From the NCBI GenBank assembly GCA_902619105.1, contig CACNCV010000003.1:1-64000 (forward strand): a DNA stretch of 64,000 bases, in the 5' to 3' direction. Below, piece after piece: positions 46,326 through 53,213 of this stretch. A program made the position numbers and the translations under genes. The notes under the pieces are model-generated. The model had not been told where the DNA came from and did not search any database. It saw only the letters and a list, made by a program, of their open reading frames with translations. Numbering within the stretch: position 1 is the first letter of the stretch; every line of letters starts with the position of its first letter. The stretch is from an uncultured Pelagibacteraceae bacterium (GTDB lineage: Bacteria; Pseudomonadota; Alphaproteobacteria; Pelagibacterales; AG-422-B15).

Positions 46326-47624
46326 TTGACTGACTTGCTTAAACAATCTTTTGATGAAGAAATTAATTTAAAATTAAGAACTTTAAACCTTATACATTGG
46401 ACAGCTATATTTGGTCAGTTCTTTGCCATTATAATTGCATATTTTTATTTCGAAATAAGCTTTAGTATATATTTCTGTATATTTTTGATACTTCTTAGTG
46501 TTGTATTAAATATTCTTGTTAGTATTTTTTATCCTTTAACAAAAATACTTAATTATAATGAAACTTTTTTAATTCTTGTATTCGATTTACTTCAATTAGT
46601 TGGTCTTCTTTTTTTAACCGGAGGTCTGACAAATCCATTTTCTGTATTAATACTTGCGCCGCTTGTTATTGCGGCAACCTATCTTGATTTAAAAAGAATA
46701 ATTGTTATCACGCTAATAGCTATTATTTCACTTAATTTCCTTGCGTTTTTTTATTACCCGTTAGAGAGTGATGCATTGGGTATTAGTCAAAATGAATTTT
46801 CTACGTTTGAGATATTTTTAATATGGTCGGCATTAATAATTGCGGCAATATTTCTTACATTTTATTGTTTCAGGGTGGCTGATGATTCAAGAAAAACTCG
46901 TAAGGCACTAAAAGAAACGCAACTTTCTCTTTCAAATGAGGAAAAAATTTCTGCATTGATGGGATTAACAGCTGCAGCAGTACACGAACTAGGTACTCCG
47001 TTATCAACTATATCAGTGATTACAAAAGAACTTGTCAATAATAATGATGACGAACAAGTAAAAGAAGATTTAAATGTGATACAATCTCAGCTGAAAAGAT
47101 GTAGTAATATATTAGAAAGATTAAGATCAAATAGTTTAGATGACAAAAATAATGAGTTTATAAACCAGTTAGACTTTATTCGTCTGATTAATGAAATAAC
47201 ATCTTCTTATGATAATAATAATATTAACATTATTATTTCTAATGATCCTTATTTTGAGAACATCAATGTTACAATTCCCAGGTCAGCTGAAATAGTTCAT
47301 TCAATAACTAATGTAGTTGATAATGCATTTAAATTTGCAAGCTCACAAGTGGATATCAATTTAATTAGTGAAGAAGAAAATATTACTATTGAAGTAGCAG
47401 ATGATGGCCCAGGATTTGCACCAGAAATATTCCCCTTTCTTGGGGAACCTTATATCAGAAATAATAATAAGGCTAAAAAGCAGGGTCTTGGCTTAGGTTT
47501 ATTCATTTCTAAAAACTTACTTGCAAAGTCTCAAGGCGAGATTAAATTTTCTCAAAGGGAAGGTGGTGGAGGATTGGTAAAAATAGTTTTATCAAAAAAT
47601 TACCTCAATTTATCTAATGAGTAA
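46326..47624 (+). CDS. regB: Redox-responsive sensor histidine kinase RegB/PrrB
   Basis: A 432-residue membrane kinase of the RegB/PrrB/ActS family. Six hydrophobic segments precede residue 183 or so, with the conserved quinone-related loop GGLTNPF at 99-105. The H-box AAAVHELGTPLSTIS has the phosphorylated His220. Cys259, in the segment QLKRCSNIL after the H-box, is in the position where I expect the redox-active Cys of R. capsulatus RegB. The HATPase region ends with DDGPGFAPE and GLGLGLFISKNLL. Start TTG at 46326. It overlaps regA by 8 bp; the senC/prrC gene often between or beside them is absent. Confidence 0.93.
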   Translation: MTDLLKQSFDEEINLKLRTLNLIHWTAIFGQFFAIIIAYFYFEISFSIYFCIFLILLSVVLNILVSIFYPLTKILNYNETFLILVFDLLQLVGLLFLTGGLTNPFSVLILAPLVIAATYLDLKRIIVITLIAIISLNFLAFFYYPLESDALGISQNEFSTFEIFLIWSALIIAAIFLTFYCFRVADDSRKTRKALKETQLSLSNEEKISALMGLTAAAVHELGTPLSTISVITKELVNNNDDEQVKEDLNVIQSQLKRCSNILERLRSNSLDDKNNEFINQLDFIRLINEITSSYDNNNINIIISNDPYFENINVTIPRSAEIVHSITNVVDNAFKFASSQVDINLISEEENITIEVADDGPGFAPEIFPFLGEPYIRNNNKAKKQGLGLGLFISKNLLAKSQGEIKFSQREGGGGLVKIVLSKNYLNLSNE

Positions 47625-48171
47625 TGTAAAAGAAGTATATGTAAATAACGAAAAATCATTAATGATAATTGATGATGATGATGTATTTAGGAATAGGTTA
47701 ATCACTGCAATGAAACGTAAGGGCTACGAAGCTTTTGGGGCTTCATCAGTTTCGGAAGCTATATCACTGGTTAACACAAATGCTCCAAAATATGCAGTAA
47801 TTGACTTACGCCTAAATGATGGTAATGGCTTGGAGGTTGTTTCAATTTTATCTAATAAAAGGCCAGATAGCAAAATAGTAATGCTTACAGGATATGGTAA
47901 TATACCAACTGCAGTAGCGGCCGTGAAAGAAGGAGCGTGTGATTATCTCGCTAAACCTGCGGACGCTGATGATATTGAGGCCGCACTAAAAGCTCCTTAC
48001 TCATCTACACCTGAACCTCCACAAAATCCAATGTCTGCGGATAGGGTGAAGTGGGAGCATATACTGAGAGTTTATGAGTTATGTAACCGAAATGTTTCTG
48101 AGACCGCTAGGAGATTAAAAATGCACAGACGTACTTTGCAGAGAATACTTCAGAAAAAATCACCAAAATGA
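47617..48171 (+). CDS. regA: Response regulator RegA/PrrA/ActR
   Basis: A 184-residue regulator with a receiver domain (phosphorylated Asp63 by my count, in YAVIDLRLNDGNG) and the unusually conserved Fis-type helix-turn-helix at the C-terminus (NVSETARRLKMHRRTLQRILQKK). A Pro-rich hinge (TPEPPQNPM) joins them, as in other members. RegA acts globally on respiration, carbon and nitrogen genes under low-redox conditions. It ends 4 bp before the stop of the convergent ferritin-like gene. Confidence 0.95.
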   Translation: MSNVKEVYVNNEKSLMIIDDDDVFRNRLITAMKRKGYEAFGASSVSEAISLVNTNAPKYAVIDLRLNDGNGLEVVSILSNKRPDSKIVMLTGYGNIPTAVAAVKEGACDYLAKPADADDIEAALKAPYSSTPEPPQNPMSADRVKWEHILRVYELCNRNVSETARRLKMHRRTLQRILQKKSPK

Positions 48172-48175
48172 TTCA

Positions 48176-49375
48176 CTAAGCAGTTTTTTTTAATTTATTA
48201 ATCTCACTTAAGACACTTACACCTTGATCAGCAATTTCCTGGCCAGCAACTGTATCACTTTCATTATTTAGTTCATCCATGTTAACAAATTCTGCATAAG
48301 TTGCCCTAGTTCTATCAGTAATTATGTGAGCCTTTAGAAGTGTTTTGACGAGAACTCGAAAGATATTGTTTTGATTTTTCATTTCATCTTTGATTACCTC
48401 GCCCTGATCAATGTATTTATGAAACTCCTTATCAACCCACTTATGATCTAAGCCAACACAAGAATATACATGTTTCTTCTCAAATGGATTGACCAGGTTA
48501 AACAGAAGTTCAACGAATATTTTCTCTGCCCAATCTTCAACTTTGATATGCTCTTTCTTAGTCAATTTTGGAACTGTTCTATCAGCCCATATTTTACCAA
48601 ATTTATGATGGAACGCTTCATCACTCATCGTATATTTTAATAACGTTTTCAATACGGGGTCATTCGTATTCTCATATGCCATGGCAAATGCTCCCATAGC
48701 TAATCCCTCAATCATCATTTGCATTCCAATGATCTTTTTATACACTAAATCAGACGAAACAATTTCGTTGGCTACTCTACCTAAAGTTGGCCCAACTTTA
48801 TAAGGTGACCCCCATCTTGCTTGAATATACTTAGTAAAACCAGCAACATGTCTAGCTTCTTCCCTTGTTTGATTAGCTGCATATTCTTGAGCACCTGGAT
48901 CTCTTAACACGTGACATAAACTTGCACTCAACGAAAGAGCGGCCTGCTCACCATGAAGAATTTGGGATAATACAAATCTAAAACTCTCATTATTTAATTT
49001 AATTAACTGATGCTTTGACAACTTCTCCCTAATACTTGGGATTTGAAGTTCAATTCCGAAAGGTCCATCGGGGTCAACAATATTTTCATTTTCGATGTCA
49101 AATGGAATATCAAAATCAATGTATTTTTTATCATTGGGGTCCCAGAAATGTTTATGTGTAGCGCTAATTATCTTATCAAAGGCATCTGATCGGTCACTGT
49201 AGCGATCTTCATCCATCATTGGAATAAAGTGATTAGGATTTGCTGCGTTGTATGCAGGATCTTTTGTAAGAGAGTTTTTACCAGATTTGGAAGTTTGCCA
49301 TTTTTCTTGAACCTTATAGATTTGATCTTTGGCTACAATTTTTGCAATTTGTATTTTTTGTGATAATTCCACCAT
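48176..49375 (-). CDS. Ferritin-like di-iron protein, putative oxygenase
   Basis: A 399-residue protein with the ligand set of R2/AurF-type carboxylate-bridged di-iron enzymes: by my count Glu143 (HGEQAA), Glu173-x2-His176 (EEARH), Glu223 (MIEGLAMG) and Glu253-x2-His256 (DEAFHH), with spacing 30/50/30. The N-terminal segment HFWDPNDKKYIDFDIPFD recurs in relatives that I know only as ferritin-like domain-containing proteins. No signal peptide. The substrate is unknown. It is divergent from the RND exporter gene with a 237-bp gap holding a palindrome, so it may act on a compound that the exporter moves. Confidence 0.75.
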   Translation of the reverse strand: MVELSQKIQIAKIVAKDQIYKVQEKWQTSKSGKNSLTKDPAYNAANPNHFIPMMDEDRYSDRSDAFDKIISATHKHFWDPNDKKYIDFDIPFDIENENIVDPDGPFGIELQIPSIREKLSKHQLIKLNNESFRFVLSQILHGEQAALSLSASLCHVLRDPGAQEYAANQTREEARHVAGFTKYIQARWGSPYKVGPTLGRVANEIVSSDLVYKKIIGMQMMIEGLAMGAFAMAYENTNDPVLKTLLKYTMSDEAFHHKFGKIWADRTVPKLTKKEHIKVEDWAEKIFVELLFNLVNPFEKKHVYSCVGLDHKWVDKEFHKYIDQGEVIKDEMKNQNNIFRVLVKTLLKAHIITDRTRATYAEFVNMDELNNESDTVAGQEIADQGVSVLSEINKLKKTA

Positions 49376-49418
49376 TCAAACGATTATATACATTTTACTT
49401 TATAATTAAACATATAAA

Positions 49419-49432
49419 TGAACAGTTGTTCA
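49419..49432. promoter_or_regulatory. 14-bp palindrome, possible TetR-type operator
   Basis: TGAACA-GT-TGTTCA, perfect 6-bp arms around two bases, in the gap between the ferritin-like gene (44 bp from its ATG) and the RND exporter gene. The size and symmetry are typical of TetR-family operators. No TetR-type regulator is encoded nearby, so the binding protein is unknown. Confidence 0.45.
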
Positions 49433-49612
49433 CTTTATTTATTAAAAAATAAAATAAAAACAATAATTTAAATAATAAAAAATTTTACGTCATTATTCTT
49501 ACCTCATATAATGCTTGAAAATGTGCCAAACGTTTATAATTTAATAATGTACAAAATCATTAATTTCTCATATTTTGTGCGACTATCATTAAAAGAAATC
49601 ATTTATTAACGA

Positions 49613-52294
49613 ATGTTGCAAAAAATAGAAAATTGGTTCTTTAAATTTCGCCTACCGGTTCTTTTGAGTTTTGTTCTTCTCACTTTAATTATGGGATATT
49701 TTGCAGTTCAGATAAGAATGGACGCAGGATTCTATAAACAACTCCCAAGTAATCACACATTTGTAAAAACTTACTATGAGTATCAAGATGATCTAAGTGG
49801 AACCAATAGTATTACTGTTGCATTAAGAACAACAGATGGCGACATATTCAATCAAGAATATTTTACAAAATTATTTGAGCTTAATCAGACGATTAGATAT
49901 TTACCAGGTGTAAATCAGGGCTCAATGCAATCATTATGGACACCAAATGTGAAAGTGATGCGTGTAACTGAAGAAGGCTTTGAAAGTACTGAGGTAATTC
50001 CTGGAAATTTAACTCCAGAAAAATTAAATGAAGCAGAAATAAATAAGATTAAAGAAAGAATACTAACTGGTGGTCATGTAGGCAGTATCGTATCTAATGA
50101 TTTTACATCTTCTCTGATTAAAGTTGAGTTAACAGAGTTTAATCGGAAAACAGGTGAGAGATTAGATTATCTTCAATTGGGACAAGATATTGAGGTTATA
50201 AGAGACGAATTTGAAAAAGGTGATTATCGAGTTGAAATAATTGGCTTTGCGAAAATGATTTCAGATATAGCAAGTGAGGCTTACAATGTAGTAATATTCT
50301 TCGGACTTGCATTCTTACTTACTGTACTTGCTGTTTACTGGTACTCTAGATCTTGGACACTTACATTCCTTCCACTCATTTGCTCATTAACGTCTTTAAT
50401 TTGGCAGTTTGGAATGTTAAAGATCCTAGGGTTTGGACTAGACCCTCTTGCAATTCTTGTACCTTTCTTAGTATTTGCAATAGGAGTATCTCATGGAATA
50501 CAACAAGTTAACCAAATTACAAAAGAAGTAATAGAGGGCCAAACAGCAGAATACGCAGCTAGGGCATCGTTTTCAAGATTATTAGTGCCTGGAACAATGG
50601 CTTTAGTTACAGATTTAGTTGGTTTTGGAACTTTGATTTTACTTCCGATAGGTATGATACAGGAATTAGGAATAACCGCATCGATAGGCGTTGCATTTAA
50701 AATAATTACAAACCTTGTTATGCTTCCACTGGCCGCTTCTTATGCAAGATATAACAAAAGTTTTGCAACAAGAGCCCAAGCAGCAATAACTTATAGACAA
50801 AACTTAATGGGCTTTTTTGGTTTGCTTGCTAGACCTAAACCTGCTGTTATTACCTTGTCTGTAAGCGCATTGCTTTTTGCAGGGGCAACTTATCTAGCGA
50901 GTGAAAGACATGTAGGAGACTTACACGCCGGTGCACCGGAATTGAGACCCGAAGCTAGATATAATAAAGATATTAACGAAATAACTAAAAGGTACGCTGT
51001 GACCACTGACGTTCTAGTCGTTATTGCTGAAACTGGTGCAACAGGAGGAATAAACCCCTGTAGATCAGATTACATAATGGAAGCGCAGGACAACTTACAT
51101 TGGTATTTAGAAAACATTCCAGGCGTTACAAAAGTAATTTCTTTATCAAGTGTAGCAAAAAGAGCTTTGAGTGGATACGCGGAAGGTAACTTAAAATGGA
51201 CTTATCTTCCAAGGAATGAAAGAGCACTTGCATTTGCTACAAGTGTGGTTGACCCATCAACGGGGCTTATAAATGAAGCCTGTTCGATAATGCCTATATA
51301 TGTTTTTACAGAAGACCATAAAGCCACAACAATTAGTCGATTAGTAGAAATTCTCGAAGAATATAACAAAAAATTTAGAGACTCAGATGAGACTTTAACT
51401 TTTAGAGTTTTAATTGAAAAGCCAGCAGAAGGCACTGAAATAATCCCTGATGCCAGTTTTGTTGGAAGTAATGAACTACCCGTTGAAGATTTAGGTGTTG
51501 CAAATCCTGTAATTTTTACTGATGATGAATTTACTGATTTTAGTTACGAAAAGGGCTTTAATTCAAGAAACTTATGGACCACAAATTTGGTAGCTTACTA
51601 TCGTGACATTGACTCATATGATGCAAAAACTGATTTTAGGGTTAGTGATATAAAACAATCTGAAATAGTTTTTAAAGAATTTTTTCAAGAAAATCCAGAA
51701 TACTCTCATATTCTCTTTGACACAGATGAAATCAAATACAGGTTGGCAAGCGGAACAGTAGGAATTCAACATGCAACAAATCAAGTTATTGAAGAAGGGG
51801 AATTACCTATGATGATAGCTGTGTATATCGTGATTATAATTCTTGTCTTTGCTACTTACTTAGACTGGAGAGCAACTATTTGCTGTACCGTTCCTCTAAC
51901 CTTTGCAACAATGCTAGGGTATGCGTTTATGGACTTAGCTCAAATTGGCCTTAAGGTTTCAACCTTACCAGTTATGGTTTTGGCCGTTGGCGTTGGAGTA
52001 GACTATGCTTTTTATATATACAATAGATTAAATATGAGAATGAAAGAAGGTCTTGGTATTACAGAGGCATTTGAGCATACTTTTGCAAATACAGGTGCTG
52101 CAGTAGTATTTACTGCTATTACTCTAGCAATCGGTGTTTCAACATGGTCATTCTCTGCACTAAAATTTCAGGCAGATATGGGATCATTACTTACCTTTAT
52201 GTTTATAATAAATATGGTTTGTGCGATGACGACATTACCTGCTCTAGCTGTTGTACTTGATAAATTATTTCCAAGAAAAAAAATTAATTCTTAG
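49613..52294 (+). CDS. RND/MmpL-family exporter
   Basis: An 893-residue inner-membrane transporter. It has one N-terminal membrane segment (about residues 13-32), a large periplasmic loop, five more segments beginning near residue 220 (VVIFFGLAFLLTVLAVYWYS), a second loop (about 430-725), and a final group of segments including LPVMVLAVGVGVDYAFYIYN, the MMPL-type repeat (matching LAILVPFLVFAIGVSHG in the first half). Members move lipids or hydrophobic compounds; the closest type I recall is the RND exporter found with DUF1302/DUF1329 genes in other proteobacteria, but those are not here. It overlaps the convergent ABC ATPase gene by 11 bp. Confidence 0.88.
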   Translation: MLQKIENWFFKFRLPVLLSFVLLTLIMGYFAVQIRMDAGFYKQLPSNHTFVKTYYEYQDDLSGTNSITVALRTTDGDIFNQEYFTKLFELNQTIRYLPGVNQGSMQSLWTPNVKVMRVTEEGFESTEVIPGNLTPEKLNEAEINKIKERILTGGHVGSIVSNDFTSSLIKVELTEFNRKTGERLDYLQLGQDIEVIRDEFEKGDYRVEIIGFAKMISDIASEAYNVVIFFGLAFLLTVLAVYWYSRSWTLTFLPLICSLTSLIWQFGMLKILGFGLDPLAILVPFLVFAIGVSHGIQQVNQITKEVIEGQTAEYAARASFSRLLVPGTMALVTDLVGFGTLILLPIGMIQELGITASIGVAFKIITNLVMLPLAASYARYNKSFATRAQAAITYRQNLMGFFGLLARPKPAVITLSVSALLFAGATYLASERHVGDLHAGAPELRPEARYNKDINEITKRYAVTTDVLVVIAETGATGGINPCRSDYIMEAQDNLHWYLENIPGVTKVISLSSVAKRALSGYAEGNLKWTYLPRNERALAFATSVVDPSTGLINEACSIMPIYVFTEDHKATTISRLVEILEEYNKKFRDSDETLTFRVLIEKPAEGTEIIPDASFVGSNELPVEDLGVANPVIFTDDEFTDFSYEKGFNSRNLWTTNLVAYYRDIDSYDAKTDFRVSDIKQSEIVFKEFFQENPEYSHILFDTDEIKYRLASGTVGIQHATNQVIEEGELPMMIAVYIVIIILVFATYLDWRATICCTVPLTFATMLGYAFMDLAQIGLKVSTLPVMVLAVGVGVDYAFYIYNRLNMRMKEGLGITEAFEHTFANTGAAVVFTAITLAIGVSTWSFSALKFQADMGSLLTFMFIINMVCAMTTLPALAVVLDKLFPRKKINS

Positions 52295-53213
52295 TTAATT
52301 TAAGAAATACGTCTTCAAGCTTAGTCTCATTTATATTTAAATCTTTAATTTGAATATTAGATAACCGCAATGCGTCTAAAATTTTATTGATTCTAATTTC
52401 ACTAGGCTTGTAATTAATTATTAGAGTGCCATTTTTTAGTTCACATTCTAAATTTAATCCAATTATTGGCTCTAGATTCGGATTTTCATCATCTAATGAA
52501 ATAATTATTTGTTTTCTGTCAATTAATGATTTTATATTTGATGTCGTATTCTTTGTTATTAAATTACCACCATCTATTATTGCAATTTCATTACATAACT
52601 CTTCTGCTTCATGTAAATAATGGGTTGTAATGATAATTGTTTTACCTTCACCATTTAATTTATTTATATTAGCCCATAAATTTGCTCTAAGCTCAACGTC
52701 TACACCTGCTGTTGGTTCATCAAGAATTAATATTTCAGGATTATGAACCATTGCTTTAGCTATCAGTAATCTTCTTCTCATTCCTCCTGATAATGTTCTA
52801 GCGTATGCGTGTGATTTATCTTCTAGTGCAAGAAGTTTTAATATGTCATCAGTCCTTCTTTTATTTTTTGGAACCCCAAATAAACCAGCCTGAATTTCTA
52901 ATAACTCATATGGAGTAAAGAAAGGATCGATATTTAACTCTTGAGGAACGATGCCCATTAATTTTTTCACATCTTTTAACTTTTCATCATGGCTCATGCC
53001 GAATATGTCTATGTGCCCAGATGTCTTTCTTACCAGATCAGCTAAAATATTAATAAATGTTGATTTACCCGCACCATTAGGTCCTAGCAATCCAAATATC
53101 GAGCCTTTCTTTACTTGAAGGGAGATATTATTCAGAGCTACTTTTTCATTTTTAGATCCTACGCCGTAAATTTTATTTAAATCTCTCACTGATATTGCGA
53201 CATCGCTTGACAT
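52284..53213 (-). CDS. ABC transporter ATP-binding protein (ABC-2 / YadG-like)
   Basis: A 309-residue ATPase with Walker A (GLLGPNGAGKSTFIN), signature (LSGGMRRRLLIAKA), Walker B (ILILDEPTAGVD) and switch His (ITTHYL). The C-terminal 75 or so residues form the extra domain of drug- and polysaccharide-type ABC-2 ATPases. The integral membrane partner is not next to it: the upstream gene is a small zinc-finger protein on the other strand and the downstream gene is an RND exporter. The permease must be encoded elsewhere in the genome. Confidence 0.92.
   Translation of the reverse strand: MSSDVAISVRDLNKIYGVGSKNEKVALNNISLQVKKGSIFGLLGPNGAGKSTFINILADLVRKTSGHIDIFGMSHDEKLKDVKKLMGIVPQELNIDPFFTPYELLEIQAGLFGVPKNKRRTDDILKLLALEDKSHAYARTLSGGMRRRLLIAKAMVHNPEILILDEPTAGVDVELRANLWANINKLNGEGKTIIITTHYLHEAEELCNEIAIIDGGNLITKNTTSNIKSLIDRKQIIISLDDENPNLEPIIGLNLECELKNGTLIINYKPSEIRINKILDALRLSNIQIKDLNINETKLEDVFLKLTKN

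Follow-up and report, generated by a model that had tools for sequence, protein, structure and literature searches.

What joins a ferritin-like di-iron protein to the RND transporter encoded divergently from it in a SAR11 genome? We analyzed a 64,000-nucleotide stretch of DNA (the window; positions 1-64000 of contig 3) from a 1.24-Mb, 90% complete SAR11 genome (Pelagibacterales, AG-422-B15-type) that contains such a pair. An initial annotation, made from the sequence alone, had described two divergent open reading frames, an 893-residue transporter and a 237-bp gap, all of which we recovered. We call the di-iron gene fer. We consider it rather probable that fer is the enzyme, and the RND protein the inner-membrane pump, of an envelope system that handles a hydrophobic compound and is split between loci. 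It would resemble AmeABCD of Castellaniella defragrans, in which an HAE3 RND protein has DUF1302, DUF1329 and COG4447 partners (PMC6394551, excerpt). The features of the pair are as follows.

48176..49375, minus strand: fer, R2/AurF-like di-iron protein, 399 aa, with ligands E143, E173/H176, E223 and E253/H256
49376..49612: divergent intergenic region common to fer and RND, 237 bp
49419..49432: dyad TGAACA-GT-TGTTCA, probable operator, 43 nt from the fer start codon
49613..52294, plus strand: RND/MMPL transporter, HAE3-like class, 893 aa

The divergent arrangement is conserved at every SAR11 locus whose contig is long enough to show it. We fetched 40 SAR11 loci, three of which lie on contigs that end before the RND start (L068, L078 and L090); the pair is present in all of the remaining 37. 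We also searched 14 chosen alphaproteobacterial genomes outside SAR11 for RND homologs (E ≤1e-15). Ten contained matches, the best of which is in all ten cases transcribed divergently from a fer homolog (L102, L122, L123, L126, L127 and L183-L187). An eleventh non-SAR11 pair comes from another assembly (L110). The searched genomes encode 14 further RND paralogs; none of the six whose surroundings were read is near a fer gene, and two of these six adjoin DUF1329 genes (L188 and L190). The linkage on which the initial annotation depended thus holds at all SAR11 loci with enough contig and recurs in distant alphaproteobacteria, and neither of the findings it had named as contrary, a lost linkage or an exporter family with an unrelated known substrate, was encountered. 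Because the same pairing recurs at such distance, fer and the RND protein very probably cooperate in handling an oily compound. The pairs carried by Parvibaculum sedimenti HXT-9 (L126), P. indicum DSM 25305 (L183) and Tepidicaulis marinus MA2 (L127) could allow study of the system without culturing SAR11.

Sequence identity is uneven across some of the SAR11 loci. In L069-L071, fer is 93% identical to that of the window and the adjacent RND gene 72%, with RegB (a neighboring gene, below) about 52% identical in L069 and L070. This difference suggests that fer moved between SAR11 lineages by transfer or recombination.

A second association connects the fer family to the other half of an Ame-like system. 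Among 40 named non-SAR11 fer loci (L093-L132), 11 place fer directly downstream of a YCF48-type gene, nine of them as a tandem fer pair. These 11 loci include DUF1329 in eight cases and DUF1302 in six; the contig begins inside the block in five. Pfam confirms the DUF1302, DUF1329 and YCF48 domains in one of them (L094). This locus, DUF1302-DUF1329-YCF48-fer-fer, belongs to SO-S41, whose only RND gene at threshold is itself linked to fer (L186). The metagenome-assembled genome JANXXU likewise has both kinds of locus (L122 and L101).

The window's genome encodes a DUF1302-DUF1329-YCF48-SDR cassette on contig 1, at about 74-80 kb, without an RND gene of its own. Neither RND nor fer was found near the cassette in nine of nine genus loci read (about 19-20 kb each). 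All four gene kinds of AmeABCD therefore occur in this genome, with an RND that is only HAE3-like, and they do not form one conserved four-gene cassette, as the RND lies apart from the other three. A split system has precedent, since separate gene pairs of Pseudomonas putida, PP_0765/PP_0766 (DUF1302/DUF1329) and PP_2018/PP_2019 (periplasmic protein/efflux transporter), show correlated fitness on Tween 20 (PMC10866462, excerpt). The components are restricted in a similar way when 36 genomes of the genus are compared with 23 Pelagibacterales genomes of another family: fer is found in 29 and 0 genomes, respectively, RND in 30 and 0, DUF1302 in 34 and 0, and a TetR gene discussed below (TetR2) in 29 and 0. 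DUF1329 of any type, other copies included, is present in 43 of 43 genus genomes, the only group in which it was searched.

The SAR11 DUF1302 protein is itself variable. Between genomes (L199:6123-8951 and L201-L208) it is 30-79% identical over the first aligned piece, compared with 63-97% for its cassette neighbors DUF1329, YCF48 and SDR, as if the DUF1302 surface were under diversifying pressure.

What kind of enzyme is fer? The ligands E143, E173-x-x-H176, E223 and E253-x-x-H256 are at the positions given by the initial annotation and show no variation among all 38 aligned relatives. The absence of a signal peptide was also borne out, as fer lacks an N-terminal hydrophobic stretch; the sole 19-residue segment that reaches the hydrophobicity cut (215-233) lies inside the core. 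fer has no Pfam match at E 0.001. It scores 15.7 bits against AurF (PF11583; curated cut-off 29.6), and aldehyde decarbonylase also appears at looser settings. All 38 aligned fer proteins match the AurF profile at E ≤1 (best 1.6e-9). A structure model built from the alignment (pLDDT 83.6, pTM 0.86) adopts the helical fold of R2-like di-iron oxidases and oxygenases, whose E...ExxH...E...ExxH ligand pattern fer also carries. The model matches R2, R2lox, AurF and CmlI with Z scores of 17.5-18.5, mutually within about 1, at 9-17% identity. Searches of known structures by other routes returned less: Foldseek alone gave nothing at E <0.001 (best 2.4e-3, stearoyl-ACP desaturase), phmmer with the single fer sequence found no match in PDB, and a profile search of PDB yielded weak matches only (best E 0.03, to aldehyde decarbonylases). 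Ligands, fold and profile matches together make the class, an R2/AurF-like di-iron enzyme, secure; they do not fix the reaction. The proposal that fer is a likely oxygenase thus stands as to the enzyme type, and the oxygenase chemistry we infer.

Two other assignments were set aside. The aldehyde-deformylating oxygenase model (TIGR04059) gives fer 17.8 bits, far below its cut-off of 222.65. Ferritin-type iron storage is not favored, as the listed fold matches are R2, R2lox, AurF and CmlI and the partners are transport genes. A distant fer paralog in another alphaproteobacterium adjoins a gene with FAD-, NAD- and 2Fe-2S-binding domains (L142). Reductases with these domains are of the kind that feeds such oxygenases. 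CylC-type dimetal halogenases are distant AurF relatives (PMC8406957, excerpt), and halogenation of this type may be an alternative reaction class for fer. Most non-SAR11 fer relatives and some distant paralogs end in the tripeptide AAE (alignment A1), an ending absent from SAR11 fer proteins and from the fer of L093.

The transporter is an MmpL-type RND protein, as first described. It passes the cut-off of the RND/MMPL superfamily (PF03176, 73.4 bits against 20.5), and its best NCBIfam match is HAE3 (TIGR00921), a hydrophobe-handling class, at 180.5 bits, below the subfamily cut-off of 351.9. A crude hydrophobicity scan finds 11 hydrophobic stretches, where twelve membrane spans are expected for HAE3. 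RND pumps are usually proton-driven exporters. Orthology to HpnN was rejected, with scores far below cut-offs (51.5 of 751.85 bits for TIGR03480 and 25.3 of 1100 for NF052374). The window's genome encodes a second RND protein (L200:8118-12396), which matches that of the window with only 35.5 bits and adjoins a LolA-like gene and a gene for a 394-aa protein without a Pfam match.

The palindrome that the initial annotation had noticed in the gap, TGAACA-GT-TGTTCA, is present and conserved beyond chance. It is the only exact match in the window; allowing up to two mismatches yields 7 matches where 5.7 would be expected, which leaves the exact match and its conservation as the only evidence. The 1.24-Mb genome contains two exact matches and none to a reversed control pattern. 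We surveyed 38 gaps (the 37 loci and the window), and 17 of them contain exact TGAACA-N2-TGTTCA, in every case at 42-44 nt from the start of fer. Neither half varies at all among the 17 near-clade gaps, whereas the two middle bases do. Fourteen further gaps have a dyad at the same place with up to three mismatches (for example TGAGCATATGTTCA, and TGAGCGTATGCTCA in which both halves are changed), which brings the total to 31 gaps, or 32 at up to four mismatches; perfect 5+5 symmetry is seen in 19 of the 31. In 30 of these 31 dyads a purine precedes the site and a pyrimidine follows it, and none is preceded by T. The dyad is missing from six gaps (L069-L074). Because its halves change in pairs at a fixed position, the dyad is probably an operator, a candidate site for a dimeric regulator.

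Other conserved signals are present in the gap, as the longest invariant run among near-clade sequences (13 columns) lies near the RND start, apart from the dyad. Three of the gaps that lack the TGAACA dyad (L072-L074) contain another, ATATCA-N3-TGATAT, seen by eye in the alignment. A promoter and terminator scan was uninformative (2 promoter-like sites against 3.2 in shuffled sequences, no terminator). The pattern TGARC-N4-GYTCA is absent from all 11 non-SAR11 fer-RND gaps. Across 43 genus genomes, each has between 0 and 5 occurrences of a relaxed dyad pattern; the window's genome has 4, and one of the reversed control. Another recurrent site is TGAACCTTCGTTCA.

Which regulator might bind the dyad? 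The initial annotation had pointed to the TetR family, and the window's genome does encode two TetR genes; the identity of the regulator we infer from their distribution. TetR2 (G000:C3:210222-210833) lies in the order pyrD-TetR-SDR (pyrD by eye). We compared 17 distinct genomes under 18 handles (G020 and G469 denote a single genome): 11 with the dyad (up to four mismatches) and six without. TetR2 is present in 10 of the 11 and absent from all six. The six are probably one lineage (RND 65-72% identity), so that this fit is weak and amounts to little more than one contrast. The TetR2 regions L172-L177, its own operon included, show no intergenic TGA-type N4 dyad. TetR1 (G000:C3:101746-102408) has a BetI-type C-terminal domain and a weaker phyletic fit. 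The genus-restricted TetR2 thus appears to be the better of the two candidates.

It is nevertheless conceivable, if doubtful, that the fer dyad is an operator of TetR1 and ties the pair to a betaine- or amine-type catabolic regulon. The TetR1 promoter region contains TTGAAT-N4-ATTCAA and the neighboring aminotransferase-like gene is preceded by TTGAAC-N4-GTTCAA, with half-sites like those of the fer dyad. However, the flanks differ, since fer dyads are never preceded by T, and TetR1 is present in four of the six genomes lacking the dyad and only seven of the 11 having it. The same dyads mark a neighborhood (L143:5244-13039) in which a BetI-like TetR gene stands beside FAD oxidoreductase, GcvT/DmdA-like, class III aminotransferase-like and Rieske-like genes (by eye), a probable small SAR11 regulon.

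Together, these observations suggest a model in which fer acts in the cytoplasm as the dedicated R2/AurF-like oxygenase for a hydrophobe handled by Ame-type HAE3 envelope transport. Its di-iron site would activate O2 and oxidize the compound. The neighboring RND protein would act as an AmeD-like inner-membrane engine, driven by protons, that carries the product, or less probably the substrate, out of the inner membrane to the periplasm. The DUF1302-DUF1329-YCF48-SDR locus would supply an outer-membrane barrel, a LolA-like periplasmic carrier and a periplasmic YCF48 protein, with DUF1329 and DUF1302 passing the compound across the outer membrane. A dimeric regulator, for which the genus-restricted TetR is the best candidate, would bind the dyad upstream of fer and set expression of one or both genes. 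The small hydrophobe-modifying export module of the initial annotation is thus upheld in its linkage, its di-iron enzyme and its hydrophobe-class RND with relatives adjoining DUF1329. The module is probably incomplete as first drawn, given the separate cassette without RND and the adjoining RegB/RegA genes, and modification and outward direction are predicted features.

Several observations weigh against this model. Four of the 14 searched genomes have fer but no RND match (G314, G369, G409 and G484), and many fer copies are near neither RND nor the cassette; the association of the enzyme family with the pump is therefore not universal. Two genus genomes, G023 (93% complete) and G004 (76%), have fer and RND but no DUF1302 match. 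No TGARC-N4-GYTCA dyad was found near the cassette in L198-L200, which hold DUF1329 genes. The growth defects of P. putida on Tween 20 fit uptake as well as export. Phylogeny is also not straightforward. We built two fer trees, one of 81 rows (SAR11 thinned; unnamed duplicates L001-L031 and fragments dropped) and one of 49 chosen rows without distant paralogs, and an RND tree of 28 rows; several inner forks are weak. SAR11 fer proteins cluster with that of L093 (98/100 in the 81-row tree and 100/99 in the 49-row tree), which has no RND within 10 kb and comes from a metagenome-assembled genome with another fer beside RND (L187). RND-linked and cassette-linked fer genes elsewhere form two other groups. 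As the fer trees are unrooted, SAR11 fer could be a divergent ortholog of the linked genes or a paralog that took their place. Fer-linked RND rows do not form one clade, with two label changes needed. The pairing of the fer family with RND is independent of the answer on orthology, and simple vertical descent is not implied.

A somewhat unlikely alternative is that the pair belongs to a catabolic or detoxifying module, as in degraders of hydrocarbons, terpenes or steroids: the pump would move an unmodified hydrophobe in, or out as solvent tolerance, and fer would open its degradation. Ame-like systems or parts have been tied to growth on monoterpenes, Tween 20, benzene or phenanthrene, and high expression of a related cluster is reported from a culture that degrades benzene (PMC13101534, excerpt). 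One or two P450-like genes lie near five of the 11 non-SAR11 pairs (L110, L123, L126, L183 and L184; identity checked by Pfam only for two genes in L126). Beside the window pair, however, there is no catabolic operon among the open reading frames, and RND pumps of the best-known classes export. It is less probable that the RND protein works by itself and, in the manner of HpnN or BstA, flips a fer-modified membrane lipid to the periplasm, with the cassette unrelated. HpnN is reported to work without partners (PMC6394551, excerpt), the window RND has no partner gene next to it and matches HpnN models locally, and G023 and G004 are without a DUF1302 match. The HpnN match is far below cut-off, though, the fer family repeatedly adjoins cassette genes elsewhere, and the SAR11 cassette lacks an RND gene in all nine loci.

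The immediate surroundings of the pair raise one further explanation. On the RND-distal side, fer is followed by a two-component system.

46326..47624, plus strand: RegB/PrrB/ActS-type redox sensor kinase (NF033792, 402.6 bits, cut-off 350)
47617..48171, plus strand: RegA/PrrA/ActR-type response regulator (NF033791, 285 bits, cut-off 250)

These genes are directly beside the pair, with 4 bp between the ends of RegA and fer. In many alphaproteobacteria, RegA and/or RegB lie within about 6 kb of fer, with or without RND (L113, L122, L123, L126, L127, L133, L135-L137, L183-L185 and L187). The linkage could be an inherited neighborhood (RegBA-fer-RND near gyrB) without shared function, which we consider quite improbable. 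RegB/RegA also occur near fer where RND is not adjacent (L113, L133 and L135-L137), and a gyrB-like gene (by eye) is near the pair in L102 and L122 as in the window, which points to an old region. Against such an origin, the 17 kb read in SO-S41 (L186) contain fer-RND but no RegBA, the pair stays as other neighbors change, and the fer family adjoins DUF1302-DUF1329-YCF48 genes at other loci. On the other side of the pair, a DrrA-like ABC ATPase gene (window 52284-53213, opposite strand) shares 11 bp with the end of the RND gene; no permease gene was found among the neighboring open reading frames listed.

The split Ame-like system that we favor may be part of something broader. We tentatively propose, as a possibility we hold with low confidence, that this uncharacterized R2/AurF-like family is the dedicated oxygenase of Ame-type hydrophobe systems in Alphaproteobacteria, and that one SAR11 lineage uses a split version to make and release an oxidized hydrophobic metabolite or outer-membrane lipid into seawater. 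If so, this lineage would have a capacity not found in the 23 searched Pelagibacterales genomes of another family. An unannotated enzyme family, whose window member has no Pfam match above cut-off, would gain a testable partner and substrate class, and the puzzling DUF1302/DUF1329 genes would be connected with an oxygenase-like protein. The system would also hint that the streamlined genomes of SAR11 encode lipid or hydrocarbon chemistry. Among the open-licence matches listed, judged by titles and abstract starts, no paper joins the fer family with RND or DUF1302/DUF1329; two (PMC6515984 and PMC12502724, excerpts) contain 'ferritin-like' and 'RND transporter' in unrelated places.

How does the system compare with those already known? 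fer shares the fold and E/ExxH/E/ExxH ligand plan of AurF, CmlI, R2 and R2lox; it falls below the Pfam AurF cut-off, however, and it is distant in sequence from the aligned structures. It resembles aldehyde-deformylating oxygenase in a weak profile match over the core but is much longer and reaches 17.8 of 222.65 bits. HpnN (hopanoid) and BstA (sterol) are RND transporters that handle polycyclic lipids (PMC10942540, excerpt). The window RND is, like them, an MMPL-type RND protein; unlike HpnN, it is far below the HpnN cut-offs, and BstA is set beside it by description. P. putida has separately numbered DUF1302/DUF1329 and RND-plus-periplasmic gene pairs, an arrangement like the one we propose for SAR11, but the excerpted account names no di-iron enzyme and the phenotype is growth on Tween 20. 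Unlike AmeABCD, the SAR11 genes lie in two loci with a di-iron protein attached, and the RND protein is likened to AmeD by description. Like AmeABCD, the window's genome brings together an HAE3-like RND with DUF1302, DUF1329 and YCF48-type genes.

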